Of a DNA stretch of 33,689 bases, positions 331-14,680 are shown piece by piece (position 1 is the first letter of the stretch; each line of letters opens with the position of its first letter). The position numbers and the translations under genes were made by a program. Below the pieces are notes generated by a model. It saw only the letters and a list, made by a program, of their open reading frames with translations, searched no databases and was not told the DNA's origin. Source of the stretch: Actinophytocola xinjiangensis (GTDB lineage: Bacteria > Actinomycetota > Actinomycetes > Mycobacteriales > Pseudonocardiaceae); NCBI RefSeq assembly GCF_001921215.1, contig NZ_MSIF01000047.1, forward strand, positions 1-33,689, read 5' to 3'.

Positions 331-380
331 GCGCCCGACCCCTCCAATTCAGGTCTGTGACCGGGGCCACCATGTGTTGT

Positions 381-396
381 AGACTGTATGCAGTAT
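381..396. promoter_or_regulatory. Candidate GntR operator, site 1 (before the MFS gene)
   Basis: AGACTGTATGCAGTAT matches the reverse complement of the consensus ATACNGNATNCNGTAT with one mismatch. It shares the 12-mer GTATGCAGTATG with site 3 in the same orientation relative to the downstream gene. A weak promoter can be drawn as GTGACC (357-362), 17 bases, TAGACT (380-385). The operator would then cover the -10 and start region, which fits repression. The promoter is an inference. Confidence 0.6.
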
Positions 397-430
397 GGAA
401 CAACTTGTCCAGGGAACCTGGAGGCCAGTG

Positions 431-1762
431 ATGAGGACCTCAGCCGAACCCGCGCCAGGTGAGACACTCGACTTCCTCGGCCGCCGCTACGTCGTCGGCC
501 CCTCCCCCGAAGCCCTTCTCGGCCGCGACCGCACCTGGATGCTGTGGCTGCCCTGGGCCGCGATGGCCGCGATCGGCATCCTCCAGTACGGCTTCGGCTC
601 GCTCGTCCCCGCGCTCACCGAGCGCGGCTGGGCCGCCGTGGACGTGTTCTGGCTACTGGCACTGTGGACGGTCTTCCAGGCCGGCGCCGGATTCCCCGTC
701 GCGTTCCTGCGGGAACGCGGCCGGATCGGCCCGCGCAGCGCCATGATCGCCGGCGCGGTCCTGCTCGCCGCCGGCCCACTCTCGCTGGCCCACGGGTCAC
801 CACTCGTTGCCCTGATCGGGTATTCGGTCCTCAGCGGCACCGGCGCCGGCCTGGTCTACGCGACCTGCTCGTCGACCGTGGCCAAGTGGTACCCCGAACG
901 CACGGCCGCCAAGGTCAGCCTGGCCACCGGCGCGTTCGCCTACGGCTCGGTCCCGTTCGCCGTCGCGTTCCTGTTCACCGCCAACGGCGGCCCGCTGACG
1001 GCGATGCTGAACGTCACCGCCGCGGTCGTGTTCCTGGTCGTCCTGGGCGCCGGCCTCATCCTGCGTGACCCGCCGGCGCACTGGTGGCCGCCGACCGTCG
1101 ACCCGCGCGAGTGGGCGCTGGACGGCCGGCGCAGCCCGGTCAACGCCGTGCGGCAGTTCTCCCCCCGCGAGGCGATGCGCACCGGCGTGGCGCCACTGAT
1201 GTACCTGATCCTGTTCTGTGCCAGCGCCGTGTCGCTGTTCGACATCACGTTCCTGGCCACCCTGGGCGCGTCGCTTGACCTCACGGTCCTGGTGGTGGCC
1301 ATCGGCACCGGCGTGCTGCTGGGCACCAACGGCGCCGGCCGGGCACTGGCGATCCGGGTGTCCGAACGCGCCGGCAGGACCAGGACACTGGGCTGGGTCC
1401 TGGCCGTTCTCGGTGTGGGACAACTGTTCCTGGCCGGCGCGGCGGCCTCCGGCTCGGGCGCGATGCTCGTCGCGGCGACGCTGCTGGCCGGCATCGGCGG
1501 CGGCGCGTTCTACCCGCTGTTCGCGAGCCTGGCCCGGGAGTTCTTCGGCGACCAGAGCGCCGGCGCCCGCCAGACCCACGCGGCGGTCTACAGCGCCAAG
1601 GCCTTCGGCGGCGTGCTCGGCGTTGGCCTGGCGGCCGTGGCGCTGCCGGAGTGGGGCTACCCGACGGTGTTCCTGCTGGCCACGGTGCTGGCGGTCGGAT
1701 CAGGCGCGCTGTGCCTCAAGCTGCGCCAGCCGGGGCACCTGGTGTCGGCCCTGCCCGCCTGA
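431..1762 (+). CDS. OFA-family MFS transporter (oxalate:formate antiporter-like)
   Basis: A 443-aa polytopic membrane protein with about 12 hydrophobic segments. It belongs to the oxalate/formate antiporter (OFA) branch of the major facilitator superfamily. Typical features are the short N-terminal tail before WMLWLPWAAMAAIGILQYGFG, the GRIGPRSAMIAGAVL loop after TM2, and GAGLVYATCSSTVAKWYPER in TM4. Start choice: an in-frame ATG at 395 lies inside the candidate operator and has no ribosome site. ATG at 431 follows GGAGG (420-424) with 6-base spacing, so I use 431. Its neighbours frc, the ThDP enzyme and the GntR regulator suggest oxalate uptake in exchange for formate. The substrate is inferred from family and context. 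A strong hairpin follows the stop. Confidence 0.88.
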   Translation: MRTSAEPAPGETLDFLGRRYVVGPSPEALLGRDRTWMLWLPWAAMAAIGILQYGFGSLVPALTERGWAAVDVFWLLALWTVFQAGAGFPVAFLRERGRIGPRSAMIAGAVLLAAGPLSLAHGSPLVALIGYSVLSGTGAGLVYATCSSTVAKWYPERTAAKVSLATGAFAYGSVPFAVAFLFTANGGPLTAMLNVTAAVVFLVVLGAGLILRDPPAHWWPPTVDPREWALDGRRSPVNAVRQFSPREAMRTGVAPLMYLILFCASAVSLFDITFLATLGASLDLTVLVVAIGTGVLLGTNGAGRALAIRVSERAGRTRTLGWVLAVLGVGQLFLAGAAASGSGAMLVAATLLAGIGGGAFYPLFASLAREFFGDQSAGARQTHAAVYSAKAFGGVLGVGLAAVALPEWGYPTVFLLATVLAVGSGALCLKLRQPGHLVSALPA

Positions 1763-1777
1763 CCGGGGCAGATGAAA

Positions 1778-1810
1778 GGGACTGGACCGTACGGACCACG
1801 GTCCAGTCCC
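1778..1810. terminator. Bidirectional hairpin terminator
   Basis: A perfect 13-bp stem (GGGACTGGACCGT / ACGGTCCAGTCCC) with a 7-base loop lies between the convergent MFS gene (stop 1762) and the 54-aa ORF (stop 1823). It can serve both strands. There is no U-tract, as is common in actinomycetes. Confidence 0.8.
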
Positions 1811-1822
1811 CGAAGGCCCCGG

Positions 1823-1987
1823 TCAGACCGAGGACCTGTCGCGCGTGGGCGCGGGCGCGGTACGCAGGTAGTCCTCCACCTCGCGCGCGGCCAGCTCACG
1901 CTGCTTGTTCATCGCGGCCGCGAGGCCGATCCCCAGCGGGCGGCCGTCGGCGTTGAAGGAGCCGAGCTTCTTCAGCCAGTTGCGCAT
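1823..1987 (-). CDS. Unknown 54-aa protein
   Basis: A short ORF starting MRNWLKKLGSFNADGRPLG and ending in a basic, proline-containing tail (APTRDRSSV). It is preceded by AGGAGGTGA, a near-perfect match to the 16S anti-Shine-Dalgarno, 8-10 bases before the ATG at 1987. That is the best ribosome site in this part of the window and the main reason to call the gene. The protein is mostly predicted alpha-helical (MNKQRELAAREVEDYLR) and not membrane-spanning. It lies 113 bases downstream of gntR on the same strand, ahead of the shared terminator, so it may be co-transcribed with the regulator. I do not recognise a family and assign no function. Confidence 0.7.
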   Translation of the reverse strand: MRNWLKKLGSFNADGRPLGIGLAAAMNKQRELAAREVEDYLRTAPAPTRDRSSV

Positions 1988-2100
1988 CGTTCGATTCACC
2001 TCCTCATGGGCATCACGGGTAACCCTCGTTCGCGTCAGCGCGAACAGGGCGTGCTTGTACTCGGTCGGTCGCCCGCCTGGGGCGACGCGGAGAGGGAGCG

Positions 2101-2841
2101 TCAGGCCTTGGAGGCCCGTCGGCGCCGTCGGGCCGGCAGCGCGATCAGCTGCTGGTCGCCTTCGGCCACCCGCTGTTCGAGGTAGGACTTCCGTGTCCGC
2201 TCGGTGTGTTCCTTCATGATCGCGGCGGCACCGTCGGCGTCCCGGTTCTCGATCGCGTCGATCAGTTTGGCGTGCTCACGCCAGGACTGCTCCCCACGCT
2301 GCCGCGCGATCGGCGTGTAGTACCACCGAACCCGACGGTCCACCTGGGTGGCGAAGTCCAGCAACACCTTGTTGCCGGACAGTTCCGTGACACACCGGTG
2401 CACGGCCGCGTTCAACGCGACGGCGGTGTCCACGTCGTCTGACTCCAGAGCCTCACTGCCCTGTCGGTTCAGGTCGCGCAGGCGCGCGATGCCCTCGGCG
2501 TCGGCGTGCAGCGCGGCCAGCCGCGCTGATTCGCTCTCCAGCAGCGAACGGACCGCCAGCAGCTGGTCGGCCTCCTCCTCGGTGGGGGCATGGACGAACG
2601 CGCCGTAGCCCGGCCGCAGGTCCACCCAGCCCTCGTTGTTCAGCCACTGCAACGCCTCGCGTACCGGCTGACGCGACACTCCCAGCATCTGGGCCAGCTC
2701 GCTCTCGACCAGGTGTTGACCGGGTGCGAGACGCCGCGAGATGATCAGCTCCTGCATCGCCTGGTAGACGTGCTCGCGCAGGGGAACCGGCCGGTCGATC
2801 CGGCGAGCCGCCAGTTCCTTCGGCAACTCGTTCGACTGCAT
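2101..2841 (-). CDS. GntR-family transcriptional regulator, FadR (FCD) subfamily
   Basis: 246 aa. An N-terminal winged helix (about residues 19-83) contains LAQMLGVSRQPVREALQWL followed by the wing GWVDLRPGYGAFV. An all-helical FCD ligand domain (about 90-215) follows, with histidines in AVHRCVTEL, EHAKLIDAI and KEHTER placed as in metal-binding FCD domains that sense small organic acids. The tail is very basic (ARRRRRASKA). The ATG at 2841 is preceded by GGAG. A candidate operator lies about 50 bases upstream (2892-2907), and three similar sites lie before the MFS gene, the lyase operon and the panE-like gene. It is therefore the likely local regulator of this catabolic island. Ligand (oxalate, oxalyl-CoA, formyl-CoA or another) is unknown. 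Confidence 0.92.
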   Translation of the reverse strand: MQSNELPKELAARRIDRPVPLREHVYQAMQELIISRRLAPGQHLVESELAQMLGVSRQPVREALQWLNNEGWVDLRPGYGAFVHAPTEEEADQLLAVRSLLESESARLAALHADAEGIARLRDLNRQGSEALESDDVDTAVALNAAVHRCVTELSGNKVLLDFATQVDRRVRWYYTPIARQRGEQSWREHAKLIDAIENRDADGAAAIMKEHTERTRKSYLEQRVAEGDQQLIALPARRRRRASKA

Positions 2842-3145
2842 CGTGGCTCCATCGGGTAGAAGCTGAACTCCCAGACACCGCTGTTCGTTGTCTACAGCAT
2901 ACAGCGACTCCGCCGCCGATTACTTCTTCTCGTGAGCGCCTTCACAAAGAGTGACCGGAGCCACTCCCCCGACCGGGTCTTTTGCCCGTCGAGCTGGGAA
3001 TCGGAACCTCACCGTCAGTCGCGCTGACAACATTGATCATTTGGATGATTTGGGAACCCCACCTAGGCTCCCCACGTCCCATGGACGATCGCTTACCAGA
3101 CTGTCTTCGCTGCTCACGAACGTCGATGCGAAAAGGGGAAGATCT
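2842..3145. other. Divergent intergenic region, gntR / 568-aa protein
   Basis: A 304-base gap with lower GC than its surroundings. It contains candidate GntR operator site 2 near gntR. An AT-rich stretch around 3025-3055, with a short inverted repeat ATCAT-TTGG-ATGAT, probably holds promoter elements for the plus-strand gene. The plus-strand frame stays open through most of this gap but has AT-rich, non-coding-like composition, so I do not treat it as coding. Confidence 0.6.
2892..2907. promoter_or_regulatory. Candidate GntR operator, site 2 (autoregulation)
   Basis: CTACAGCATACAGCGA matches the core TACNGNATNCNG perfectly but the outer right arm of the consensus poorly. It sits 51 bases upstream of the gntR ATG, which would allow autoregulation. 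It is the weakest of the four sites. Confidence 0.5.
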
Positions 3146-4852
3146 TTGTCCGGCGACTACATCACGGGAACCGCGCACGCCGCCACGCTCTCGTCCGCGA
3201 TGAACGACTTCCACGAGGCGCTCACGTTCCGTTGGCGCGAACTCGTCGTGCAGCGCATCCAGGCGGTCGAAGATTTCCCCACCCGGGTTCGACGCTCCGT
3301 CTCCGCCGCCAACCACGTCCCGCTCTGGGACCACCTGTCCGCCCCCGCCGTCCACCACCTGCGCGGCGCCGGCGGCGGCTGCGCCTACGTCGCCTGGGTC
3401 GAGGGCGGCCAGGAAGGCTCGCTGGGCGGGGTGACCTGCGACGGGAAGACCGGCGTCACCGACGAGGAGGGCGTCGAGGTGATGGGCCCCAACGGCCGGA
3501 TGGAGACCGTGCCGCCGTTCATCGAGTGCGGCATGGGCCAGATCCTGGGTGAGGTGGAGAACTGGGCCTGGGGCGAGCGCGAGTACACCTACTACGAGCT
3601 CCCCCTGTTCGACACCCAGGACATGGGCGCCATCAACGACGCCTACGACACGTTCATCGCCGTCGGCGGCCAGCTGGGCCTGGAGGCCGGCTCCGGCTCC
3701 GGCTCCGACGTTGGCTCGTTCACCCCGGTCAGCGAGCGTGAGCTGGTCGGCAAGGCCGAGGACCTGTCCGGCGCCCGCGCCCAGGGCCAGGACTGGTGGG
3801 CCGGCTGGACGGGGCTCGCCGCCTCCCGCGCCAAGGCCGGCTTCTTCGACTCCGTGACCCCCACCACCAACAACCAGTCGGGCATGGTCGGCTGCCTGGC
3901 CAACCTCTACGCCGCCCGCGGCGCGATCATCGAGAAGGGCCGCAACGACTCCCTGTACTGGATCCAGTGGGCCACCAAGTCGCTCAAGGAGACCCAGGCC
4001 ATCAGCACCGACCTGGTCGCCGGCTGGAAGGTCATGCAGGGCATCGGCAGCGCCATCGCCATCAGCGGCGGCTGGACCGTCGCCGGCGGGGCCATCGGCG
4101 CGTCGATCGCCCTGGTCGGGTTCTGCGGGGAGAACCTGCTGCCCTCGGTGAAGACCGAGGGCTACGCCCACGACCTGGTCGCGGTCGTGGAGAAGCTCAA
4201 CACCAAGGTCACCGAGCTGAACACCGAGCTGGACACCATGGAGACCGAGTACACCGGCGAGGTCAACAACCTCCAGTCGACCGTGTTCGGCATCCACAGC
4301 TTCAACCTGGAGCTCTACGACCTCACCCAGAACAACCCCGGCGGGGACGACCACGGCGCCGACGACTACACCGCCAACGTCGAGAACATCCTCAAGATCG
4401 GTCAGACCTGCTACGAGGCCGGCGAGTTCTACGACGGCCTGTGGCCCAGGATCGCCCAGACCTCCGACGCCGACGCCCACCTGACCGACAAGGACGGCGC
4501 GGCCACCGCCGGGGACACCGCGCTGCTCGAACTGCGGACGATGTTCGAGGGCTTCGTCAAGACCGCCTGCGGGCGCTACCTGGTGGCCGGCGACCAGACC
4601 GTGGCCGCCGCCGAGGACTACGCCCAGGTCGAGTCCGACCAGCAGGGCGCCTACGAACGGATCATGGACGACTGGGAGGAGGCCGGCGTCGGCGACCACG
4701 ACAGCTCGCTGAACCCCGGGCAGGAGGCCGACGCCACCGACCGGGGCGACTACGACCCCTACGCCGACCACCCGGCCCTCGGCGGGGCCGACCCGGGCGC
4801 GGCGACGGGCGACGGCGAGGACTACGAGACCGACGCCGACACCCCGAACTGA
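3146..4852 (+). CDS. Unknown 568-aa protein, possible WXG/ESX-type exported protein
   Basis: I start at TTG 3146 because AAAAGGGGAAG lies just upstream and coding-like composition begins there; the frame is open further upstream but AT-rich. No family is recognised. Visible features: helical N-terminus (about 1-50); tryptophan- and tyrosine-rich middle including DWWAGWTGLAASRAKAGFF; one long hydrophobic, glycine-rich segment at about 297-330 (IGSAIAISGGWTVAGGAIGA); a coiled coil at about 345-376 (VEKLNTKVTELNTELDTMET); and a strongly acidic, Asp/Gly-rich tail over the last 60 residues. WxG-like motifs, a central hydrophobic hairpin and a coiled coil recall large actinobacterial type VII secretion substrates, but this is only a resemblance. 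It stands alone between divergent gntR and convergent terC. Confidence 0.8.
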   Translation: MSGDYITGTAHAATLSSAMNDFHEALTFRWRELVVQRIQAVEDFPTRVRRSVSAANHVPLWDHLSAPAVHHLRGAGGGCAYVAWVEGGQEGSLGGVTCDGKTGVTDEEGVEVMGPNGRMETVPPFIECGMGQILGEVENWAWGEREYTYYELPLFDTQDMGAINDAYDTFIAVGGQLGLEAGSGSGSDVGSFTPVSERELVGKAEDLSGARAQGQDWWAGWTGLAASRAKAGFFDSVTPTTNNQSGMVGCLANLYAARGAIIEKGRNDSLYWIQWATKSLKETQAISTDLVAGWKVMQGIGSAIAISGGWTVAGGAIGASIALVGFCGENLLPSVKTEGYAHDLVAVVEKLNTKVTELNTELDTMETEYTGEVNNLQSTVFGIHSFNLELYDLTQNNPGGDDHGADDYTANVENILKIGQTCYEAGEFYDGLWPRIAQTSDADAHLTDKDGAATAGDTALLELRTMFEGFVKTACGRYLVAGDQTVAAAEDYAQVESDQQGAYERIMDDWEEAGVGDHDSSLNPGQEADATDRGDYDPYADHPALGGADPGAATGDGEDYETDADTPN

Positions 4853-4877
4853 CGGGCTGACGGGGCTGAGCCGGGGG

Positions 4878-4920
4878 TTCGGTGGGCCGGGCCACGGTCC
4901 GTGTGGCCCGGCCCACCGAA
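4878..4920. terminator. Bidirectional hairpin terminator
   Basis: A perfect 18-bp stem (4878-4895 with 4903-4920) and a 7-base loop lie between the convergent 568-aa gene (stop 4852) and terC (stop 4934). Confidence 0.85.
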
Positions 4921-4933
4921 GTTCACTCCACCG

Positions 4934-5935
4934 TCACTCCACCTCGGCCGGACGCTCGTCGGTGGTCGTCGCCACCTCGGCGATCTCCCGGTCGCGGTCA
5001 CGGCGGACCTTGAGCAGGCTGGCGACCGTGGTCACCGCCAGGGTGCCGATGATGATCGCCAGCGACACCAGGATCGGGATCTCCGGCGCCCAGGACACAC
5101 CGTCGTGGTGCAGGGCCTCCATCACCAGCTTCAGCCCGATGAAGCCGAGCACCACCGACAGGCCGATGCTCAGGTACACCAGCTTGTCCAGCAGCCCGCC
5201 GATGAGGAAGAACAGCTGGCGCAGGCCCATCAGCGCGAACGCGTTGGCCGTGAAGACCAGGTAGGGCTCCTTGGTCAGCCCGAAGATGGCCGGGATCGAG
5301 TCCAGCGCGAACAGCAGGTCGGTGGTGCCGATGGCGACCATCACGATCAGCATCGGGGTGACCATGCGCTTGCCGGCGACCTTCGTGGTGATCCGGGCGC
5401 CCTCGTACTGGTCGGTGGCCGGCAGGAACTTCTTCGCCACGCGCAGCATGGCGTTCTCCTTGAACTCCTCGTCATCGTCGTCGCCGTGGGTCATCAGCTT
5501 CCACGCCGTGTAGATGAGGAAGGCACCGAAGACGTAGAACAGCCAGTCGAAGCGGGTGATCGCCTCGTAGCCGACCATGATGAACACGCCGCGCATCACC
5601 AGCGCGATGACGATCCCGATCGACAACACCTTCTGCCGGTACTCTCGCGGCACGGCGAAGGAAGACATGATGATCACGAAGACGAACAGGTTGTCGACCG
5701 ACAGTGAGTACTCGGTGATCCAGCCGGCGAAGAACTCACCGCCGAACTGCGGGCCCTCGAAGGCCAGGATGCCCAGGCCGAACAGCACCGCGAGCCCCAC
5801 GTAGCAGCAGATCCACAGGGTGCACTCGCGCAGCGAGGGGTCACGCGGGTTGCGCGAGATGAGATAGAAGTCGAGACAGATGACGGCGGTCAGGCCGATC
5901 ACGGTGACCAGCCACAACCACAGGGGGACGTTCAT
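4934..5935 (-). CDS. TerC-family integral membrane protein (Alx/TerC type)
   Basis: 333 aa with about nine membrane helices. It carries the two signature acidic membrane motifs of the TerC family, TEYSLSVDNLFVFVII (about residues 75-90) and TTDLLFALDSIPAIFG (about 195-210). A charged cytoplasmic loop (GDDDDEEFKENAML) separates the two halves. TerC/Alx proteins are linked to tellurite resistance, and several export Mn(II) or load metals onto exported proteins. ATG 5935 is preceded by AAAGG. No conserved yybP-ykoY-type leader could be recognised; the 100-base leader instead holds a simple 15-bp hairpin. It is the last gene of a minus-strand row but probably separately expressed. Confidence 0.92.
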   Translation of the reverse strand: MNVPLWLWLVTVIGLTAVICLDFYLISRNPRDPSLRECTLWICCYVGLAVLFGLGILAFEGPQFGGEFFAGWITEYSLSVDNLFVFVIIMSSFAVPREYRQKVLSIGIVIALVMRGVFIMVGYEAITRFDWLFYVFGAFLIYTAWKLMTHGDDDDEEFKENAMLRVAKKFLPATDQYEGARITTKVAGKRMVTPMLIVMVAIGTTDLLFALDSIPAIFGLTKEPYLVFTANAFALMGLRQLFFLIGGLLDKLVYLSIGLSVVLGFIGLKLVMEALHHDGVSWAPEIPILVSLAIIIGTLAVTTVASLLKVRRDRDREIAEVATTTDERPAEVE

Positions 5936-5963
5936 CGGCTACCTTTCGCCCGCGCGAGTACGA

Positions 5964-6003
5964 CTCGTCGACGCGCCGCCGCCATCAACGGCGCGTCGAC
6001 GAG
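5964..6003 (-). terminator. Hairpin between the membrane-protein gene and terC
   Basis: A perfect 15-bp inverted repeat (CTCGTCGACGCGCCG / CGGCGCGTCGACGAG) with a 10-base loop. It begins 33 bases after the stop of the upstream minus-strand gene and ends 28 bases before terC. It most likely terminates the NRAMP-like operon. Being in the terC leader, it could also act on terC expression. Confidence 0.7.
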
Positions 6004-6035
6004 TTCTCCCGGGGACTTGTTCTACTCGAGCGTAG

Positions 6036-6683
6036 TCAACGCGTCGTGGAGGTCGCCTTCCTGCCTTCCGGCTTGGCGACGTTCTTCCCGGGACGCGCCG
6101 GCGGCCGGTCGGCGGTGGGCGACGGGGTGCCCGCCGGCCGTCCGCCGCGGCGGGCCGCCCTGACCTGGCCGCGCATCGCCTTGCGGCGCTCCTTGGCCTC
6201 GAAGATGATCCGCGCGTGCTCGGCGTACCGCACGTAGACCTTGGCGGCGGCCGGGTTGTGCTCGGAGATCCGCTGCCAGTAACGGGGGGCGACCCGTTCG
6301 TGCATCCAGAGGAACCCGATCGAGAAGCCCGCGCTCACGATCCCCTGGTAGGCGAGGAACCCGAACACGTCCTCGGGCAGTCTCGGCGTTCCGCCGATGA
6401 CCGCCGAGGTGGTCACCTCGTGCAGCAGACGGGCCGCCGGGTAGGCGATCAGCCAGTAGAGGGCGGCCGGGGCGAACCCGCCCAGGCGCACCTTGTTCTG
6501 CACGAGCAGCATCGTGTAGCCGGCGCCGAGCAGCGCCAGCGGGATGCCAAGGGCCAGGCCCGTCACCAGCGCCCAGCCGATGGGCTGGCCGACGAATCCG
6601 GCCAGCCCACCGGCCACGAGGCCGGCGATGAACCCGACGAAGAGCCCCGGTAGGAGCAGTTCGGCCAAACGGTAGAGGCGCAT
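6036..6683 (-). CDS. Small membrane protein of unknown function, partner of the NRAMP-like transporter
   Basis: 215 aa. About four hydrophobic segments lie in residues 5-140 (for example LLLPGLFVGFIAGLVAGG and LVTGLALGIPLALLGAGYTM). A soluble, very basic C-terminal tail rich in Arg, Lys and Pro follows (from about residue 150). Two ATGs are possible. I choose 6683 because the GGGG at the end of the NRAMP-like gene is then 9 bases away, whereas ATG 6692 touches it. The gene follows the NRAMP-like gene within a few bases, so the two are almost certainly co-translated and may form one transporter complex. I do not recognise the family. Confidence 0.8.
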   Translation of the reverse strand: MRLYRLAELLLPGLFVGFIAGLVAGGLAGFVGQPIGWALVTGLALGIPLALLGAGYTMLLVQNKVRLGGFAPAALYWLIAYPAARLLHEVTTSAVIGGTPRLPEDVFGFLAYQGIVSAGFSIGFLWMHERVAPRYWQRISEHNPAAAKVYVRYAEHARIIFEAKERRKAMRGQVRAARRGGRPAGTPSPTADRPPARPGKNVAKPEGRKATSTTR

Positions 6684-6695
6684 CGCGGTCATCCC

Positions 6696-8195
6696 CTAGT
6701 CCAGTACAACGCCGTACCTGAACAAGCTGTAGAACAGCATGCCGAGGTAGAACACCGCACCGAAGCCGATGATCGCGTTCGACCACCACTTCGGCCGGAT
6801 CGGTTTGGGCAGCATCCTGTTGTTGACCAGCAACAACGTCACACAGTAGGCACCCATGGCGAACGAGGACAAGAACGCCAGCATGTCCAGGATCCCCGCC
6901 GGTCCGTCGGCCGGGCCGAACAACAGGATCATGATGCCGAAGGTGATGACGCCCCACAGGAACCCGGCGTAGAGGTGCGAGAGCCGGAACCGTCGCGCGC
7001 CGGGAACGTGGAAGTAGGTCATGTCCGCCTGCCCCCGGGAGAACGAGTCGAACAGACCCAGGGTCGCGTTCAACCCGATCAGCGCGATGAAGGCGAAGAA
7101 CAACGTGCCGAGCACCGGGCTGCCGGCCGCGGCGAACGCGTCGGACATCGCCGAGAGCGCCGCGTCCCGGTCGCCACCCTCGATCAGCTCCTTGACGTTC
7201 GGGTTCTCCCTGGCCGCCGACCTGGCGAGCACGGTGAACGAGATCGTCACGAGCATCGTGATGCCCCAGAACAGGAGTAACGCGTCGAAGGTGACCCACT
7301 TGCGCCACCCGCGCCACTTCTCCATCTCCTGCGGGTTGTCCGTGTCGAACATGAACCCGCGGGCCGGCATCTCCTCTTCCTCCTTGGCCGACCGCAGGCC
7401 GCGGATCTTGGGCACGTGCGCGCCCATGCCGGCACCGGAGTCACGCAGGTGCAGCGTGTACCACATCTGCTGCATGCCCGACGGGCCGGCGAACGCGATC
7501 GAGCCGACGACCACCGGGAACCACGCCTCGGTGAACATGTCGTCTGGCAGGTACCCGAAGGCGAACATGCCGGCCAGCGTGCTGCCCAGGTCGTCCCAGC
7601 TGCCGACGATGGAGGCGATGACCGCCGTGCCGACCACCAGCGTGCCGATGAGGATCGCGAGCACGTTCTCCAGCAGGTCGTAGATGACACTGGCCAGGCT
7701 GAACAGGATCCCGACCAGGATCAGGGCGACGCAGGCGGTCACGACCCACGGGATGCCCGTTATCTCCTCGAACGCCGCCGCGCCCGCGGAGAGGTGACCC
7801 GGCCAGATGTAGACCAGGATCGCCGTGACGAAGAAGAACCACATCAGGGGTTTGAACACCCGTGCGGCGCCGGAGAAGATGCTCTCCCCCGTCGCCATCG
7901 CGTAACGCGCCATCTCGAGCATCACCACGGCCTGGAGGGTGACGCCGATCAGGAAGAGCCATCGGATCTCGGGTCCGAAGACCAGGACCAGTCGCGGCCA
8001 CATGTACGACTCGCCCATACCGACACCGAGCGCGACCAGGAACACGGTCGGGCCCAGCAGGTGGATGGACGGTGGTGCGTCTGGTAGCGGGCGAATCGGC
8101 ATGGGTTCGAGCCCCCCGGCTCGCCATACCCGTTCCTCCCCGTCGACAGTGGCCTCACCACTGCCGGCGACAGGAGGGTTGTGAGAATCCACCAT
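6696..8195 (-). CDS. NRAMP-like transporter lacking the canonical metal-binding motifs
   Basis: 499 aa, about 11-12 membrane helices (LeuT-like fold of the APC superfamily by resemblance). The first helix reads LGPTVFLVALGVGMGESYMW where true NRAMP proteins have DPGN. The sixth-helix region reads FAGPSGMQQMW instead of the MPH-containing segment. An acidic cytoplasmic loop (AKEEEEMPARGFMF) is present. The substrate is therefore unlikely to be simply Mn(II)/Fe(II). Beside an oxalate/acyl-CoA operon, an organic acid or metal-organic acid complex is conceivable, but that is inference. GGAGG lies 4 bases before ATG 8195. A TTA leucine codon lies at codon 306 (7278-7280). The downstream membrane-protein gene is immediately adjacent. 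Confidence 0.82.
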   Translation of the reverse strand: MVDSHNPPVAGSGEATVDGEERVWRAGGLEPMPIRPLPDAPPSIHLLGPTVFLVALGVGMGESYMWPRLVLVFGPEIRWLFLIGVTLQAVVMLEMARYAMATGESIFSGAARVFKPLMWFFFVTAILVYIWPGHLSAGAAAFEEITGIPWVVTACVALILVGILFSLASVIYDLLENVLAILIGTLVVGTAVIASIVGSWDDLGSTLAGMFAFGYLPDDMFTEAWFPVVVGSIAFAGPSGMQQMWYTLHLRDSGAGMGAHVPKIRGLRSAKEEEEMPARGFMFDTDNPQEMEKWRGWRKWVTFDALLLFWGITMLVTISFTVLARSAARENPNVKELIEGGDRDAALSAMSDAFAAAGSPVLGTLFFAFIALIGLNATLGLFDSFSRGQADMTYFHVPGARRFRLSHLYAGFLWGVITFGIMILLFGPADGPAGILDMLAFLSSFAMGAYCVTLLLVNNRMLPKPIRPKWWSNAIIGFGAVFYLGMLFYSLFRYGVVLD

Positions 8196-8245
8196 TGGAC
8201 CTCCAGTGTTCGGTTACTACCGCCTGCCTGCCTGTCGACCCCTGC

Positions 8246-8279
8246 GGGTGGCCGCCGTTTTCCGTCCCGGCGGCCACCC
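8246..8279 (-). terminator. Hairpin after the acyl-CoA ligase gene
   Basis: A perfect 12-bp stem (GGGTGGCCGCCG / CGGCGGCCACCC) with a 10-base loop lies 27 bases past the ligase stop and before the NRAMP-like gene. It probably ends or attenuates the lyase-frc-ligase transcript. Confidence 0.7.
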
Positions 8280-8305
8280 CGTGAAAACGCGAAATGGTCG
8301 GCCAG

Positions 8306-10444
8306 TTAGCCGATCAGGCCGGCGGCCCTCGCCCACCGGTACTTGGCACCGAGGACCGCCACTGGCCGCTCGGTGGTGTAGGGATACGCGATCACCCGGT
8401 GCTCGAAGAGGTAGTCGCAGGCCTGCTCGACCTCGGTGTCGCCGGCCAGCGACGCCACCACCGGCTTGTCGATCCCCTTGGCGCGCGCCTCGGCGAGCAC
8501 CTTGGCGGTCAACTCGGCGAACACCATCGGCGGGGTGACGATCGTGTGCCAGTAGCCGAGGATCAGCGCGTGGATGCGCGGGTCCTCCAGGCCAAGGCGG
8601 ATCGTCGCCTCGTAGGTCGATGGCGGCTCGCCGCCGGTGATGTCGATCGGGTTGCCCGCCGCGCCGAACGGCGGGATGAACGCACGGAACGACTCGTCCA
8701 GGTCCGGCGGAATGTCCATCAGGGACAGTCCTTCGGCGACACAGGCGTCCGACAGCAGCACTCCACTGCCGCCGGCACCGGTGATGATGACGACGTTCTC
8801 GCCCTGGGGGGTCGGCAACAGGGGCAGACCCCGCGCGTACTCGAGCATCTCGTTCAGCCCGGGCGCCCGAACCACGCCCGCCTGGCGGAGGATGTCGTCG
8901 TACACCTTGTCGTCGCCGGCGAGCGCACCGGTGTGCGAGCTGGCTGCCCGCGCACCCATGTCGGTACGGCCCGCCTTGAGCACGACGACCGGCTTCTTCT
9001 TGGTCATGCGCTTCGCGGCCTCCACGAACGCACGGCCGTCCTTCAGGTCCTCCAGGTGCATGGCGACACACTGGGTGTTGTCGTCGTGCTCGAAGAAGGT
9101 CAGCAGATCATCCTCGTCCACATCGGACTTGTTGCCCAGCCCGACGATCGCCGAGACACCCATCTTCGTGGTGCGGGCGAAGCCCAGGATGGCCATGCCG
9201 ATGCCGCCGGACTGGGACGTCAGTGCCACGCCGCCGCGCACGTCGTAGGGCGTGCAGAACGTCGCGCACAGGCTCTCCGGCGTGTAGTAGTAGCCGTAGA
9301 TGTTCGGCCCGAGCATCCGGACCTTGTACCGGGTGGCGATCTCGACGATCTCGTCCTGCAGCTCCTGGTTGCCGGTCTCGGCGAACCCGGACGGGATCAT
9401 CACCACCGCGGTGACACCCTTCTCGCCGCACTCGGTGAGCGCGGCCGGCACGAACTTCGCCGGCACCGCGAACACCGCGACGTCCACGTCACCCGGCACG
9501 TCACCGACCGACTTGTACGCCTTGCGGCCCATGATCTCGTCGGCCTTGGGGTTGATCGGGTGGATCTCGCCCGCGAACCCGCCGTTGATCAGGTTCTTCA
9601 TCACCGAGTTGCCGATCTTGCCGGCCTGGTCCGACGCGCCGATGACGGCCACCGAGCGCGGCTTCATCATCGTGTTCATCGCCTGGAGGATCTCCTCCTG
9701 GCTGTAGCGCACCGGCTCGGAACGCTCCTGGGTCTCCAGCAGGATCCGCACGTCGGCCGCCACCGCGCCGCTCGCCGAGGCGAACACCGGGTTCAGGTCG
9801 AACTCGCTGATCTGCGGGAAGTCGGTGACCAGTTGGGAGACCTTCTGGATCACGTCGGACAGCGCGTCCAGGTCGACCGGGTCGGCACCCCGGGCGCCCT
9901 GGAGCACCTCGGCCGCCTGGATCCCGGTGACCATCGACCGCGCCTCGGCGGCGTCCAGCGGCGCCAGCCGGAAGGTCACGTCCTTGAGCACCTCGACCAG
10001 CACGCCGCCCAGACCGAACGCCACGATCTTGCCGAACGTGCCGTCGGTGGTGGCGCCGACGATGACCTCGGTGCCGCCGGCACCGACCATCTGCTGGATC
10101 TGCACGCCGGTGATCGACGCGTCCGCCTTGTACGCCTTGGCGTTGGCGATGATCGTGTCGAACGCCGCCCGCGCCTCGTCGGCACCGGAGACGCCGACGA
10201 TGACGCCGCCGGCCTCGGTCTTGTGCAGGATGTCCGGCGACACGATCTTGGCCGCCACCGGTTGACCGATCTCCTCGGCGAGCTTCGCCGCCTCGTCCGC
10301 CGTCGTGGCGAGACCCTCTCGTGGGGTCGGGATACCGTACGCGTCGCAGACCCGCTTGCCCTCGGGGGCGGTGAGCGAGTCCCGACCCTCGGCCCGGACC
10401 GTGTCCAGGACCTCGCGGACGGCCGCCTTGTCTACTTCGGACAT
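8306..10444 (-). CDS. ADP-forming acyl-CoA ligase (acetate-CoA ligase family), fused beta-alpha
   Basis: 712 aa. The ATP-grasp (beta) domain is N-terminal (about 10-235; GIPTPREGLATTADEAA, KIVSPDILHKTEAGGVIVGV). The CoA-binding Rossmann domain follows (about 255-380; SVAVIGASDQAGKIGNSVMK), then the ligase domain. The phosphohistidine is in SSHTGALAGDDKVYDD, at about residue 504. These nucleoside-diphosphate-forming ligases interconvert acyl-CoA + ADP + Pi with acid + ATP + CoA. Here the enzyme could recover ATP from, or make, the CoA thioester used by frc. The acyl group cannot be read from sequence. Its start lies 4 bases after the frc stop, so the two genes are tightly coupled. It is the last gene of the three-gene operon. 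Confidence 0.9.
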   Translation of the reverse strand: MSEVDKAAVREVLDTVRAEGRDSLTAPEGKRVCDAYGIPTPREGLATTADEAAKLAEEIGQPVAAKIVSPDILHKTEAGGVIVGVSGADEARAAFDTIIANAKAYKADASITGVQIQQMVGAGGTEVIVGATTDGTFGKIVAFGLGGVLVEVLKDVTFRLAPLDAAEARSMVTGIQAAEVLQGARGADPVDLDALSDVIQKVSQLVTDFPQISEFDLNPVFASASGAVAADVRILLETQERSEPVRYSQEEILQAMNTMMKPRSVAVIGASDQAGKIGNSVMKNLINGGFAGEIHPINPKADEIMGRKAYKSVGDVPGDVDVAVFAVPAKFVPAALTECGEKGVTAVVMIPSGFAETGNQELQDEIVEIATRYKVRMLGPNIYGYYYTPESLCATFCTPYDVRGGVALTSQSGGIGMAILGFARTTKMGVSAIVGLGNKSDVDEDDLLTFFEHDDNTQCVAMHLEDLKDGRAFVEAAKRMTKKKPVVVLKAGRTDMGARAASSHTGALAGDDKVYDDILRQAGVVRAPGLNEMLEYARGLPLLPTPQGENVVIITGAGGSGVLLSDACVAEGLSLMDIPPDLDESFRAFIPPFGAAGNPIDITGGEPPSTYEATIRLGLEDPRIHALILGYWHTIVTPPMVFAELTAKVLAEARAKGIDKPVVASLAGDTEVEQACDYLFEHRVIAYPYTTERPVAVLGAKYRWARAAGLIG

Positions 10445-10448
10445 TGGC

Positions 10449-11678
10449 TCAGATCACTCCATTCGCCTTGAGCTCGGCGAGCTCCTGCTCGGACACGCCC
10501 AGCTCACTGCCGTAGATTTCGTTGTTGTGCTCGCCGAGCAGCGGAGAGCGCCTGACCTCCGCCGGCGAGTCGGACAGCTTGATCGGCATGCCGACCGTGG
10601 TGAACTCGCCGCGCTCCGGGTGGTCGACCTTGACGACGATCTCGTTGTCGGCCAACGAGGCGTCCTCGATGATCTCCTTGGTCGACAGGATCGGCCCGCA
10701 GGGGATGTTGTGCTCGTTGAGCATCGCGAGCACGTCCCACTTGCCGTGGTTGACCGACCAGTCCTCGATCAGCTGGAACATCTTGTCCAGCTTGTTGAGC
10801 CGCGCCTCCGGCGTCGACCACTCCGGGTCGTCGATCAGCTCCGGGCGGCCGATCAGCTTGGCGATCGGCTCCCAGCCCACCGGCTGCACGATGACGTAGA
10901 TGTAGTCGTTCGGGCCGCCCGGCGCGCAGCGCACCGCCCAGCCCGGCTGCCCGCCGCCCGAGGCGTTGCCCGAGCGGGGCACCTCATCGCCGAACTCCTC
11001 GTTCGGGTACTCGTTGAGCGGGCCGTGCGCCAGCCGCTGCTGGTCGCGCAGCTTGACCCGGCACAGGTTGAGCACGGCGTGCTGCATGGCGACGGTGACC
11101 CGCTGCCCACGGCCGGTGTGCTCGCGCTGGTAGAGGGCGGCCAGGATGCCGGCGACGGTGTGCATGCCGGTGCCGGAGTCACCGATCTGCGAGCCGGTCG
11201 CCAGCGGCGGGCCGTCCTCGAAGCCGGTGGTCGCCATCGAGCCGCCCATGGCCTGGGCGACGACCTCGTAGGCCTTGAAGTGGGTGTAGGGGCCGTCGCC
11301 GAAGCCCTTGATGGAGGCGTAGATCAGCCGGGGGTTGATCTCCTGGAGCTTCTCCCAGGAGAAGCCCATCCGGTCGATCGCGCCGGGGCCGAAGTTCTCC
11401 GCCAGGATGTCGAAGTCCTTCACCATCTCGGTGAACAGTTCCTTGCCCCGCGCGGACTTCATGTTCAGCGTGATGCTGCGCTTGTTGCAGTTCAGCATCG
11501 TGAAATAGAGACTGTCCACATCGGGCAGGTCCCGCAGCTGCTTGCGCGTGATGTCACCGCTCGGGGCCTCGATCTTGACCACGTCGGCGCCCAGCCACGC
11601 CAGGATCTGCGTACAGGACGGTCCACTTTGGACGTGGGTCATGTCGAGGACCCGGACACCCTCGAGTGCTTTGCGCAT
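10449..11678 (-). CDS. frc: Formyl-CoA:oxalate CoA-transferase (class III, CaiB/BaiF)
   Basis: 409 aa, close in length to Escherichia coli YfdW and Oxalobacter Frc, with strong shared blocks recalled from those proteins: [64 protein letters not shown] and the C-terminal PLLGEH. The catalytic aspartate that forms the acyl anhydride is Asp167 ([10 protein letters not shown]). The mobile glycine loop is GGGQ at 241-244. The enzyme moves CoA from formyl-CoA to oxalate, giving oxalyl-CoA and formate. It lies between the ThDP enzyme (11-base gap) and the ADP-forming ligase (4-base gap). AAGGGGA precedes the ATG. This is the best evidence that the island handles oxalate. Confidence 0.94.
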
Positions 11679-11689
11679 GCCGAGTCCCC

Positions 11690-13405
11690 TTACTTGTACA
11701 TGGTCTGGTTCATCGTCCCCGGCGCGTAGACCTCGGGGTCGACCCAGACGTTGATCAGCGACGGCAGACCGCTGTCCCGCGCGCGCTCCAGGGCGGGACG
11801 GATGTCCTTGGGGTCGCGGACCTCCTCGCCGTAGCCGCCGAGCAGCCGGGCGAACTCGTCGTAGCGGACGTCACCCAGGGTGTTGCCCACCCGGCCCCGG
11901 TCGGCGCCATACTTCTGGATCTGGCCGTAGCGGATCTGGTTCATCGACGAGTTGTTGCCGACGATGCCGACGAAGGGCAGGTTGAACCGCACCAGGGTCT
12001 CGAAGTCGAAGCCGGTGAGGCTGAACGCGCCGTCGCCGAACAGCGCGACGACCTCCTTGTCCGGCCTGGCGTACTTGGCGGCCATCACGAACGGCACGCC
12101 GACGCCGAGGGTCCCCAGTGGACCGGGGTCCATCCAGTGGCCGGGCGACTTGGGCTGCACGACCTGACCGGAGAAGGTGACGATGTCGCCGCCGTCGCCG
12201 ATGTAGATGGAGTCCTCGGTGAGGAACTCGTTGATCTCGTGCACCAGCCGGTACGGGTCGATCGGCGCGGCGTCGGACAGCTGGCGGGGCAGGCGCTTCT
12301 CGAAGGCCTGGGTCTCCACCGCGCGCAGCTCCTCCAGCCACGACTTGCGCCCGGTGGCACCGTTGTCGACCCGGCCGGAGGTGGCCTGGGTGACCGCGGC
12401 GAGCACCGCGCCGGCGTCGCCGACGATGCCGAGGTCGATGTCGCGGTTCTTGCCGACCGTGCGGTAGTCCAGGTCGATCTGCACCACGGTGGCCTGCTGC
12501 GAGAGGCGCTTGCCGTAGCCCATCCGGAAGTCGAACGGGGTGCCGACGATGATGATCAGGTCGGCGTTCTGGAAGGCGTAGCGGCGGGCCAGTTGCAGGT
12601 GGTGCGGGTCGCCGGGCGGCAGGGTGCCGCGGCCGGAGCCGTTCATGAACGCCGGCACGTTGAGCGCGCGGACGAACTCGGTGGCCGCGTCGGTGCCCCT
12701 GGTCGTCCAGACCTGGCTGCCGAGCAGCACGCAGGGCTTCTCGGCGTTGACGACCAGGTCGGCCAGGCGCTCGATGGCCGCCGGGTCACCGGCGGTCCTC
12801 GTCGAGGCGCGGTAGGCGCCCGCCTTCGGGATGCGGGCCTTGTCCAGCGGGACCTTGGCGTCCAGCACGTCACGCGGGATCTCCAGGAAGGAGGGTCCCG
12901 GCGCGCCGTGGAAGCACTCGCGGAAGGCCATCGACACCAGGTCGGCCGCGCGCTCGGTGCTGGGCACCGTGGCGGCGAACTTGGTGATCGGGGTCATCAT
13001 GTCGACGTGCGGCAGGTCCTGCAGCGAGCCCATCTTGTGCTGGGTGAGCGCGCCCTGGCCGCCGATGAGCAGCATCGGGCTCTCCGCGCGCAGCGCGTTG
13101 GCCACGCCGGTCACCGCGTCGGTGGTGCCCGGGCCGGCGGTGACGACCGCGCAGCCGGGCTTGCCGGTGATCCGTGCGTAGCCGTCGGCCGCGTGCGCGG
13201 CGACCTGCTCGTGGCGTACGTCGATGACGTCGATGCCCTCGTCGACGCAGCCGTCGTAGATGTCGATGATGTGCCCGCCGCAGAGCGTGAAGATCACGTC
13301 CACGCCTTCGGCCTTGAGCGCTTTGGCCACCAGATGACCGCCGGAGATCATCTCCGGGTTCTCCTGACCGTCGCCGCCCGGCGTCTCCCGGACCGTTGAA
13401 GCCAT
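11690..13405 (-). CDS. ThDP-dependent oxalyl-CoA decarboxylase / 2-hydroxyacyl-CoA lyase-like enzyme
   Basis: 571 aa from ATG 13405; ATG 13417 is also open but GAGGAG abuts it, while it is 12 bases from 13405. Three-domain ThDP fold: catalytic Glu66 in [18 protein letters not shown]; the pyrophosphate motif GDGAFSLTG...GNN begins near residue 455. The position that in Oxalobacter oxalyl-CoA decarboxylase reads DYEEMDQ is here [11 protein letters not shown], resembling 2-hydroxyacyl-CoA lyases and IlvG-type proteins. The C-terminal lid ends [12 protein letters not shown]. Next to frc the simplest role is oxalyl-CoA to formyl-CoA + CO2. Cleavage of a 2-hydroxyacyl-CoA to formyl-CoA and an aldehyde or ketone is a serious alternative. 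First gene of the operon, with candidate operator site 3 upstream. Confidence 0.87.
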
Positions 13406-13449
13406 GTGACTCGTCATCTCCTCATGTCATCGTGTGGGGGAGGTGGCGC

Positions 13450-13465
13450 ATACTGCATACCGTAT
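13450..13465. promoter_or_regulatory. Candidate GntR operator, site 3 (lyase-frc-ligase operon)
   Basis: ATACTGCATACCGTAT fits ATACNGNATNCNGTAT without mismatch and is the most symmetric of the four sites. It lies 45 bases upstream of the lyase start. Confidence 0.65.
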
Positions 13466-13631
13466 GACTCTAATGACGGCCAGCGTCCCGGTCTACGTTT
13501 TGTCATCCGCGCCTGTCGATGCTGTTGTCTGATCCCGTCCACGCCGGCCCCGAGCGGGCGGTCGCAAGACCCCCGCATGCCCGTTGACCAGCACTTCCGT
13601 GTTCATCTCTTCTCGTTTCGCGCAACATCTC

Positions 13632-13647
13632 ATACTGTATGCTGCAT
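13632..13647. promoter_or_regulatory. Candidate GntR operator, site 4 (panE-like gene)
   Basis: ATACTGTATGCTGCAT fits the consensus with one mismatch and overlaps a perfect odd-centred palindrome GTATGC-T-GCATAC. It lies 32 bases before the GTG start of the panE-like gene, in the divergent region shared with the lyase operon. Confidence 0.62.
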
Positions 13648-13678
13648 ACCAAATGAACACAAGAACGGAGCTTACGCG

Positions 13679-14680
13679 GTGAAAGTTGCTGTTCTTGGGG
13701 CCGGAGCCATCGGCGCTTACGTCGGTGCGGCGCTGCACCGGGCAGGAGCCGAGGTGCACCTCATAGCCAGAGGCCCCCATCTGAAGGAGATCCGACAATC
13801 GGGCGTGCGGGTGCTCAGCCCGCGCGGCGACTTCACGAGCCGTCCACACGCGACCGACGACCCGACCGAGGTAGGACCGGTCGACCACATCTTCCTTGGC
13901 CTGAAAGCGAACCGGTACGCCGAGGCGGGCCCGATGATCAAGCCGTTGTTGCACGACGGCACCACGATCATCGCCGCCCAGAACGGCATCCCCTGGTGGT
14001 ACTTCCACGGCGTGCCAGGACAGTACGCCGGGCACCGGATCGACAGCGTCGACCCCGACGGCGCGGTCTCCGCCGCGCTCCCGGTCGAACGCGCGATCGG
14101 CTGCGTGGTCTACGCGGCCACCGAGATCGAGTCCCCCGGAGTCATCCGGCACCTGGAGGGCACCCGGTTCTCCATCGGCGAGCCCACCGGCGAGATCTCC
14201 GCCAGATGCACCGAGTTCGCCGAGGCGATGGTCGCCGGCGGTCTCAAGTGTCCGGTCGAGGCGGACCTGCGCAAGGACATCTGGCTCAAGCTCATGGGCA
14301 ACATCGCCTTCAACCCGATCAGCGCGCTGACCAGGGCGACGATGGCCGGCATCTGCCGGCACCTGAGCACCCGCGAGCTGGTCGTCGAGATGATGCGCGA
14401 AACCCTCGACGTGGCCGCCAGACTCGGGTCCCACCCCGAGATCTCCATCGAACGGCGACTGGCCGGCGCCGAACGCGCCGGCGAGCACAAGACCTCCACC
14501 CTGCAGGACCTGGAGAAGGGCAAGCCGCTCGAACTCGACGTCATCCTCAAGGCCGTGGTCGAGCTGGCCGACCTGACCGGCGCCGCGGCGCCGACCGTGC
14601 GCGTGGTCAGCGCCCTGGCCGACCTGCTCAACGAGCAGGTCGCGGTCAACCCCCAGCTCAACCCGCAGTTGACCCGCTGA
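13679..14680 (+). CDS. Ketopantoate reductase family protein (ApbA/PanE-like)
   Basis: 333 aa. The N-terminal Rossmann motif VKVAVLGAGAIGAYVGAALH binds NADP(H). The central conserved lysine region is DLRKDIWLKLMGNIAFNPIS, and the C-terminal ApbA_C helices include HKTSTLQDLEKGKPLELD, a PanE hallmark. GTG 13679 is chosen because the Rossmann motif starts there and GGAG is 8 bases upstream; the longer open frame upstream is non-coding-like and includes the operator. True PanE makes pantoate for CoA synthesis. The location under a shared operator with acyl-CoA genes suggests instead a reductase for a 2-oxo acid of this pathway, or a CoA-supply role. Neither can be settled here. Confidence 0.88.
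   Translation: MKVAVLGAGAIGAYVGAALHRAGAEVHLIARGPHLKEIRQSGVRVLSPRGDFTSRPHATDDPTEVGPVDHIFLGLKANRYAEAGPMIKPLLHDGTTIIAAQNGIPWWYFHGVPGQYAGHRIDSVDPDGAVSAALPVERAIGCVVYAATEIESPGVIRHLEGTRFSIGEPTGEISARCTEFAEAMVAGGLKCPVEADLRKDIWLKLMGNIAFNPISALTRATMAGICRHLSTRELVVEMMRETLDVAARLGSHPEISIERRLAGAERAGEHKTSTLQDLEKGKPLELDVILKAVVELADLTGAAAPTVRVVSALADLLNEQVAVNPQLNPQLTR

Follow-up and report, generated by a model that had tools for sequence, protein, structure and literature searches.

A conserved GTATRC operator and a predicted oxalate-use regulon of an FCD-type GntR protein in Actinophytocola xinjiangensis and related Actinomycetes

Oxalate catabolism in C. oxalaticus, as outlined in passages of PMC9476978, runs through Frc (formyl-CoA:oxalate CoA-transferase) and Oxc (oxalyl-CoA decarboxylase), the OxlT antiporter and formate dehydrogenase, to which a portion of PMC12686821 adds PanE2 as an oxalyl-CoA reductase; use of oxalate by soil bacteria feeds the oxalate-carbonate pathway, according to an excerpt of PMC11045627. 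On the regulatory side, sections of PMC4494728 describe operators of the FadR subfamily of GntR proteins as GT-N2-AC, with extra boxes 7 to 12 nt away, for the GntR, HpxS, HypR, MdcY, PrpR and UxuR groups, and report that NanR reads direct repeats of TGGTATAW. The string "oxal" is absent from the main text of that paper, and no regulator or operator for actinomycete oxalate use appeared among the matches listed from the open literature; of six operator strings sought in open full text, one 12-mer only was matched, in two papers with titles on trout pigment cells and a meningococcal gene. Here we analyze a 33,689-nt stretch of Actinophytocola xinjiangensis (the window), contig C42 of a 9.54-Mb, 72-contig genome, in which an earlier note had proposed that four copies of a 16-mer palindrome, ATACNGNATNCNGTAT, place an OFA-like transporter, gntR, a lyase-frc-ligase gene group and a panE-like gene under one local regulator. 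The four sites are, with good confidence, predicted operators of the neighboring FCD-type GntR protein, which would control an oxalate-use regulon that extends to a distant formate dehydrogenase gene (fdhA), through repression by a dimer that oxalate would release.

The window genome shares with the known oxalate systems (as far as the sections of PMC9476978 and PMC12686821 describe them) frc, an Oxc-like thiamine diphosphate (ThDP) enzyme, an OFA-like transporter, a PanE-type reductase and an unlinked fdhA. It departs from the C. oxalaticus type in that the ThDP enzyme, called the lyase below, lies outside the Oxc family model, in the neighboring GntR gene with its candidate operators, and in the nramp and terC genes of the cluster. 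A ThDP lyase beside a GntR gene is also found in another actinomycete, Actinomycetospora, whose 2-hydroxyisobutyrate (2-HIBA) lyase-HCL cluster differs in that the portion of PMC7176365 describing it lists GntR, lyase, HCL ligase and MPD/aldehyde dehydrogenases and no frc, OFA, panE or operator. Like the FadR-subfamily regulons in the sections of PMC4494728 cited above, the window has a regulator with PF00392 and PF07729 domains, a GTATRC core in which 2 nt separate GT from (A/G)C, and boxes at 7 bp; unlike the groups described there, the left flanking box before the lyase gene is as conserved as the core, and the targets belong to oxalate use.

The core CKGTATGCWGYA is fully matched at exactly four places in the window by a script that also allowed GTATAC, and these are the four sites of the earlier note. 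Before the OFA-like gene, the operator (379..398, plus strand) comprises three boxes with a 7-bp period, GTAGAC-T-GTATGC-A-GTATGG (379-384, 386-391 and 393-398). The site before gntR (2890..2904, minus strand) reads GTATGC-T-GTAGAC, lacks the left box and is presumed to be an autoregulatory operator. Those before the lyase-frc-ligase genes (13449..13466, minus strand) and the panE-like gene (13631..13649, plus strand) are CATACGGTATGCAGTATG and CATACTGTATGCTGCATAC. Aligned on GTATGC, the four sites read GTAGACTGTATGCAGTATGG, AGTCGCTGTATGCTGTAGAC, TCATACGGTATGCAGTATGC and TCATACTGTATGCTGCATAC; they have in common C(T/G)GTATGC(A/T)G(T/C)A, which has no other full match in the window, and on each side, 7 bp away, the core usually has a partial GTATGC-like box. 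All four lie about 30 to 65 bp ahead of start codons, a distance taken from sequence and counted to start codons rather than transcript starts. Measured against ATACNGNATNCNGTAT, the sites at 381, 2892, 13450 and 13632 have 1, 4, 0 and 1 mismatches, and a search at up to two mismatches returns three window matches against 0.03 expected from shuffles, the site at 2892 not among them. The palindrome covers the core plus a portion of each flanking box; a GTATRC core accompanied by boxes at 7 bp is a more accurate description of the sites than a single fixed palindrome. The idea of four copies therefore survives as related, real sites at all four coordinates and not as four copies of ATACNGNATNCNGTAT. 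Their confinement within the window to places relevant to a regulator holds, as does the sharing of GTATGCAGTATG by two copies in the same orientation relative to the OFA and lyase genes.

Occurrence across the whole genome depends on which pattern is counted. At up to two mismatches ATACNGNATNCNGTAT has 12 matches against 10 for its backwards control and is not selective; at up to one mismatch it has four, three of them in the window (the control figure being a total). The 9.54-Mb genome contains the exact 12-mer CKGTATGCWGYA seven times. Four occurrences are those in the window, and the others lie just upstream of a formate dehydrogenase gene, inside an ABC ATPase-like open frame and about 100 nt ahead of a frame resembling a serine hydrolase (the latter two frames judged by eye); at one mismatch the counts, 58/55 against 59/52 for the control, show no excess. 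Because the 12-mer derives from the window sites themselves, and because counts of the 16-mer at two mismatches and of the 12-mer at one are unselective, independent evidence was sought in orthologous promoters. The expectation that the motif should be scarce at random places thus fails for the loose 16-mer, whereas the lyase-type 17-mer ATACGGTATGCAGTATG (at most two mismatches) is found in this genome on contig C42 only and, as described below, largely tracks the regulator among relatives. Two other palindrome matches lie before an aldehyde-dehydrogenase-like frame (C23:76003, L142; two mismatches) and before a frame judged by eye to be 3-hydroxy-3-methylglutaryl-CoA-synthase-like (C27:11124, L143; one mismatch).

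Independent support comes from orthologous promoters, where the conservation that a shared operator predicts is pronounced. A matrix built from the four window sites only was applied to 80 loci, which include Pseudonocardiaceae, Nonomuraea and relatives, Nocardiopsis, Kribbella, Saccharopolyspora and Actinoplanes; some duplicate genomes of a set of 38 stretches described below (e.g., L168/L074, L245/L102 and L180/L108), and L210 and L237 are one genome. A score of at least 16 was reached upstream of the lyase gene in 55/56 loci, panE in 37/38, OFA in 33/44 and gntR in 51/79, and in the control regions upstream of the ligase, nramp and terC genes in 0/59, 0/46 and 1/36, so that no operator directly precedes the ligase gene in the relatives. 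In L219, the single lyase miss, an exact core sits 19 nt past the script-extrapolated start, and the panE count includes a contribution from the lyase site, since the divergent lyase promoter frequently falls partly within the panE window. No better window was found among 40 random ones for 26/56 lyase, 16/79 gntR, 17/38 panE and 13/44 OFA regions, ranks that are conservative because true sites could still be present among the control windows. When 38 stretches and the window were scored against the site consensus, 31/34 lyase-type promoters had at least 14 of 16 (misses L079, L093 and L098), and regions upstream of the ligase, nramp, terC and frc genes had at most 11. The lyase-side consensus is CATACGGTATGCAgTaTg (60 distinct sequences, score at least 13) with less conserved flanks: columns CATACGGTATGCA are 80 to 100% conserved, the right GTATG 60 to 100% and the flanks 30 to 69%, a contrast that argues for selection on the site rather than mere relatedness. 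On the gntR side the consensus is AcTGTATGCTGTAg.Cag (77 distinct orthologous sequences, selected by score). TGTAGACTGTATGCAGTATGG precedes OFA also in L073, L076, L084, L102, L168, L171 and L245 (the L102 contig), and the panE operator CATACTGTATGCTGCATAC is identical in L073 and in L074/L168, one genome of A. oryzae. A core match that recurs within nramp was treated as coding sequence and disregarded.

The presumed reader of these sites is encoded at 2101..2841 on the minus strand and belongs to the FCD (FadR) subfamily, with scores of 69.2 for PF00392 (cut-off 27) and 99.8 for PF07729 (cut-off 24.3). Its predicted sites conform to the GT-N2/3-AC core of that subfamily in having a GTATRC center in orthologous promoters, with (A/G)C in place of a strict AC. 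PhnR (TIGR03338, 107.3 of 271.5) and NanR (NF003011, 97.3 of 260) are its nearest NCBIfam models, yet it falls far below both cut-offs. Its structure model has a mean predicted local distance difference test score of 83.5 and a predicted template modeling score of 0.71. Residues N144, H148, H190 and H212 align with the D-x3-H, H, H of 3sxy/3fms, a pattern (D/N-x3-H, H, H) that we take to be the metal-site residues of TM0439-like proteins, metal being presumably bound in the 3sxy/3fms protein. N144 is kept in 36/37 regulators and the three histidines in 37/37, and all four residues in 19/19 and 25/25 members of two further sets. Among 120 relatives, with the regulator called at E 1e-40 and the lyase at E 1e-150, the regulator is present in 36, the lyase in 35 and both in 34, and the two genes lie within 9.0 kb of each other in all 32 genomes that have both on one contig. 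The 17-mer ATACGGTATGCAGTATG occurs in 29 of the 36 genomes with the regulator and in 2 of the 84 others (Fisher p 6e-19, kinship ignored), and its backwards control matches in 3/120. One genome (G015) has lyase and frc and no regulator at E 1e-40, and its 13-kb locus contains no GTATRC box. In a class-wide sample of 345 genomes (regulator at E 1e-55, 17-mer at up to one mismatch), the regulator accompanies the lyase in 23/23 genomes, and the 17-mer is found in 18, namely 10/32 with the regulator and 8/313 others. Promoter conservation and the co-occurrence of regulator and 17-mer together support the proposal that one regulator ties transport, catabolism and the reductase together.

Beyond the window, the operator points to formate dehydrogenase. 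On contig C20, an exact core precedes fdhA by 24 nt, and tandem GTATGC boxes stand just before the alpha-subunit gene (L141:5824-8712), itself placed between an aldehyde-ferredoxin-oxidoreductase frame and moeA-like frames; the protein passes TIGR01591 (780 over 666). Orthologues were found as 12 hits in 11/120 genomes, and GTATG-type boxes directly precede six of them (the window genome, G003, G004, G005, G069 and G041) and are missing before fdhA in G007 and G033, genomes without the regulator. Near panE, a different fdhA has the palindrome ATACTGTATRCAGTAT 143 to 153 nt before its matched part in 4 of 12 loci that we chose, a site that counts as upstream if a start at -69 is true and that an earlier start in L214 would place inside the gene; a weaker GCATAC box occurs in three more of the 12. 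Judging from these sequences, fdhA is probably a target and the regulon larger than the four window promoters. In Haloechinothrix alba (L108, L180), the regulator gene was seen about 3 to 4 kb from fdhA, with no lyase or frc in the fetched stretch.

What the cluster degrades is best considered through its enzymes. The lyase gene (11690..13405, minus strand; alternative start 13417) is followed by frc (10449..11678, minus strand), whose product passes the oxalate model TIGR03253 with 680.6 bits over a cut-off of 504.2. The cluster might instead serve a 2-hydroxy acid similar to 2-hydroxyisobutyrate, with the operators real, the lyase yielding formyl-CoA and a ketone or aldehyde, and Frc moving the CoA. 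The lyase does score higher as a 2-hydroxyacyl-CoA lyase (NF058623, 363 bits, cut-off 600) than as an Oxc (TIGR03254, 242 bits, cut-off 739), its nearest solved chains are the 2-hydroxyacyl-CoA lyase 7pt3 (275 bits) and then the oxalyl-CoA decarboxylase entry 8vzk (268 bits), and the actinobacterial 2-HIBA cluster, in the part of PMC7176365 that lists its genes, likewise includes a GntR gene. Neither family cut-off is reached, nor is any other among the best 25 of 51 models. DYEEMD of canonical Oxc (L243/L244) aligns with DLPHVD in the lyase; the Tyr-Glu pair of DYEEMD is presumably the active-site pair Y120/E121 of the O. formigenes oxalyl-CoA decarboxylase. The situation differs in Paractinoplanes deccanensis (G120), Actinoplanes italicus (G121) and Plantactinospora mayteni (G122), where the best lyase homologue is 38 to 39% identical and on another contig, and a canonical Oxc (973, 979 and 981 bits, cut-off 739; one copy at L243:12138-13799) lies near the regulator with CCATACGGTATGC upstream. 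These are the only three of 27 regulator genomes searched in which an Oxc exceeds the cut-off; none does so in eight Kribbella genomes searched, although the genus is cited as using oxalate (the title of Robertson and Meyers 2022 and a statement about K. albertanoniae in PMC10192776). Close to the cluster there are also second ThDP enzymes, about 30% identical, and the four tested are glyoxylate carboligases, which pass NF008431 and not TIGR01504; their genes are found no more than about 6 kb from the regulator in L181, L199 and L243 and adjoin the lyase gene in L103. That carboligase gene is not claimed as a target, its upstream scores being at most 10.5 in 29/30 non-Oxc rows and 17.0 in one (L247).

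Since an Oxc replaces the lyase behind a similar operator in three genomes, Frc passes its oxalate model and a glyoxylate carboligase was identified in the four loci tested, oxalate is the best reading and the likely substrate, short of proof. With glyoxylate carboligase and formate dehydrogenase genes neighboring part of the loci, a 2-hydroxy-acid pathway seems rather improbable. We lean slightly toward a broader view in which oxalate use in several families of Actinomycetes is controlled by a single GntR-operator module, within which two ThDP enzymes of only distant kinship have taken each other's place. One would be canonical Oxc, in Actinoplanes, Paractinoplanes and Plantactinospora; the other, elsewhere, would be the lyase-like clade, a second, undescribed oxalyl-CoA decarboxylase brought under the same tandem-box operator along with formate dehydrogenase.

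Given the observed sites, their conservation, their co-occurrence with the regulator and their gene context, the oxalate-use regulon would comprise the OFA-like transporter, gntR itself, the lyase-frc-ligase genes and the PanE-type reductase, with the fdhA alpha subunit elsewhere. Each predicted operator is centered on GTATRC, of the GT-N2-AC class, with partial GTATGC-like boxes, direct or inverted, 7 bp to one or both sides. Most likely, a regulator dimer bound about 30 to 65 bp before the start codons would block transcription, and a metal-held dicarboxylate, oxalate being the first candidate, would release it by occupying the N144/H148/H190/H212 pocket. The closeness of the window sites to start codons is what suggests repression, because a protein bound there would probably overlap the promoter or transcript start. 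Activation, or both effects by position, is less probable but deserves a hearing: for FadR, exact position decides, as noted in the part of the HypR paper PMC6608401 that discusses it, and in relatives the position of the lyase-gene site varies, from close to the extrapolated start up to about 190 bp ahead of the gene. It is very improbable that the reader of the sites is one of the cell's numerous other GntR proteins instead of the neighboring one. A first-pass search of the window genome with the regulator as query did give 68 candidate stretches, and a related GntR of another family of genomes, f34, occurs near the same palindrome, but the regulator stays within 9.0 kb of the lyase gene in every same-contig pair of the 120 relatives, the 17-mer follows the regulator among them, and gntR itself is preceded by sites in most of its loci.

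Several observations count against assigning the sites to this regulator and its oxalate regulon. Seven of the 36 regulator genomes lack ATACGGTATGCAGTATG, as do 22/32 in the class-wide sample at up to one mismatch, where the distance between lyase and regulator genes is also less uniform (n = 23; at most 9 kb in 6, 13-16 kb in 5, 25-28 kb in 6 and different contigs in 6). The site is missing from 11/44 OFA promoters, and the boxes ahead of gntR are only weak in many loci of Kribbella, Nocardiopsis and Amycolatopsis. In the genome family f33, G433 has no site scoring at least 12 in 6 kb around gntR; it and G194 have a weaker lyase-promoter site (score 17.6). No box lies directly before fdhA in three same-family regulator genomes (G043, G053 twice and G060; four hits), and the fdhA site of the window genome falls in the 48-nt gap after the aldehyde-ferredoxin-oxidoreductase frame and may therefore be internal to an operon. 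Among family models, the lyase scores best against acetolactate synthase (NF004516, 512 bits, below its cut-off of 587). Lastly, the eight class-wide genomes with the 17-mer and no regulator match at E 1e-55 all come from f34 and carry an identical ATACTGTATGCAGTATG; the looser cut-off of E 1e-40 might have counted their GntR proteins as the regulator. In four f34 loci (L290, L291, L292 and L293), the palindrome CCATACTGTATGCAGTATGG (L290:5605-5624) lies about 3.8 kb from a GntR gene whose product is 45 to 48% identical, and in L290, the annotated one, phosphotransferase system (sorbose/galactosamine type) and nagA genes stand between the two. A clade of GntR proteins thus probably uses a common operator code, so the motif by itself does not identify its regulator, and its assignment to the window protein rests on neighborhood and co-occurrence.

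The remaining genes of the cluster fit around these sites. The transporter (431..1762, plus strand; PF07690) belongs to the major facilitator superfamily and resembles the oxalate/formate-antiporter (OFA) family; against NCBIfam models it falls below all cut-offs, with TIGR00890 at 95 bits (375) and TIGR04259 at 86 (335), and its best model is the lactate transporter NF049980 (121 bits, cut-off 320). The preferred start is at 431; a further ATG upstream, at 395, falls within the operator. The PanE/ApbA-family reductase (13679..14680, plus strand; NF005089, 436 bits over a cut-off of 223) is a candidate oxalyl-CoA reductase by analogy to panE2 as described in part of PMC12686821. Downstream of frc lies an ADP-forming acyl-CoA ligase gene (8306..10444, minus strand; PF19045, PF13549, PF13607 and PF13380), and transcription from the lyase promoter perhaps continues, on predicted operon boundaries, into the genes for an Nramp-like transporter (6696..8195, minus strand; NF037982, 467.7 over 50) and a TerC/Alx-family membrane protein (4934..5935, minus strand; TIGR03718, 380 over 246). 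Both are frequent cluster members, nramp without an operator of its own and terC without one in the window, and we would guess that their role in oxalate use is metal supply. A 218-aa open reading frame in the 4934-8195 region is likewise a frequent member without its own operator, and beside gntR a 633-aa open frame (2951-4852) matches no Pfam or NCBIfam model.

The A. xinjiangensis locus carries a real, conserved operator and a probable regulon whose general type is well known and which extends across several families; what may be new to a specialist is the set of genes controlled, the connection to formate dehydrogenase and the exchange of Oxc for a different ThDP enzyme. Gene surveys that use the Oxc family model could miss the Oxc-like enzyme, which that model does not recognize. 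The conserved operator offers a handle for finding missing steps of oxalate use in these bacteria, and it points to formate dehydrogenase and to the Oxc-like enzyme.

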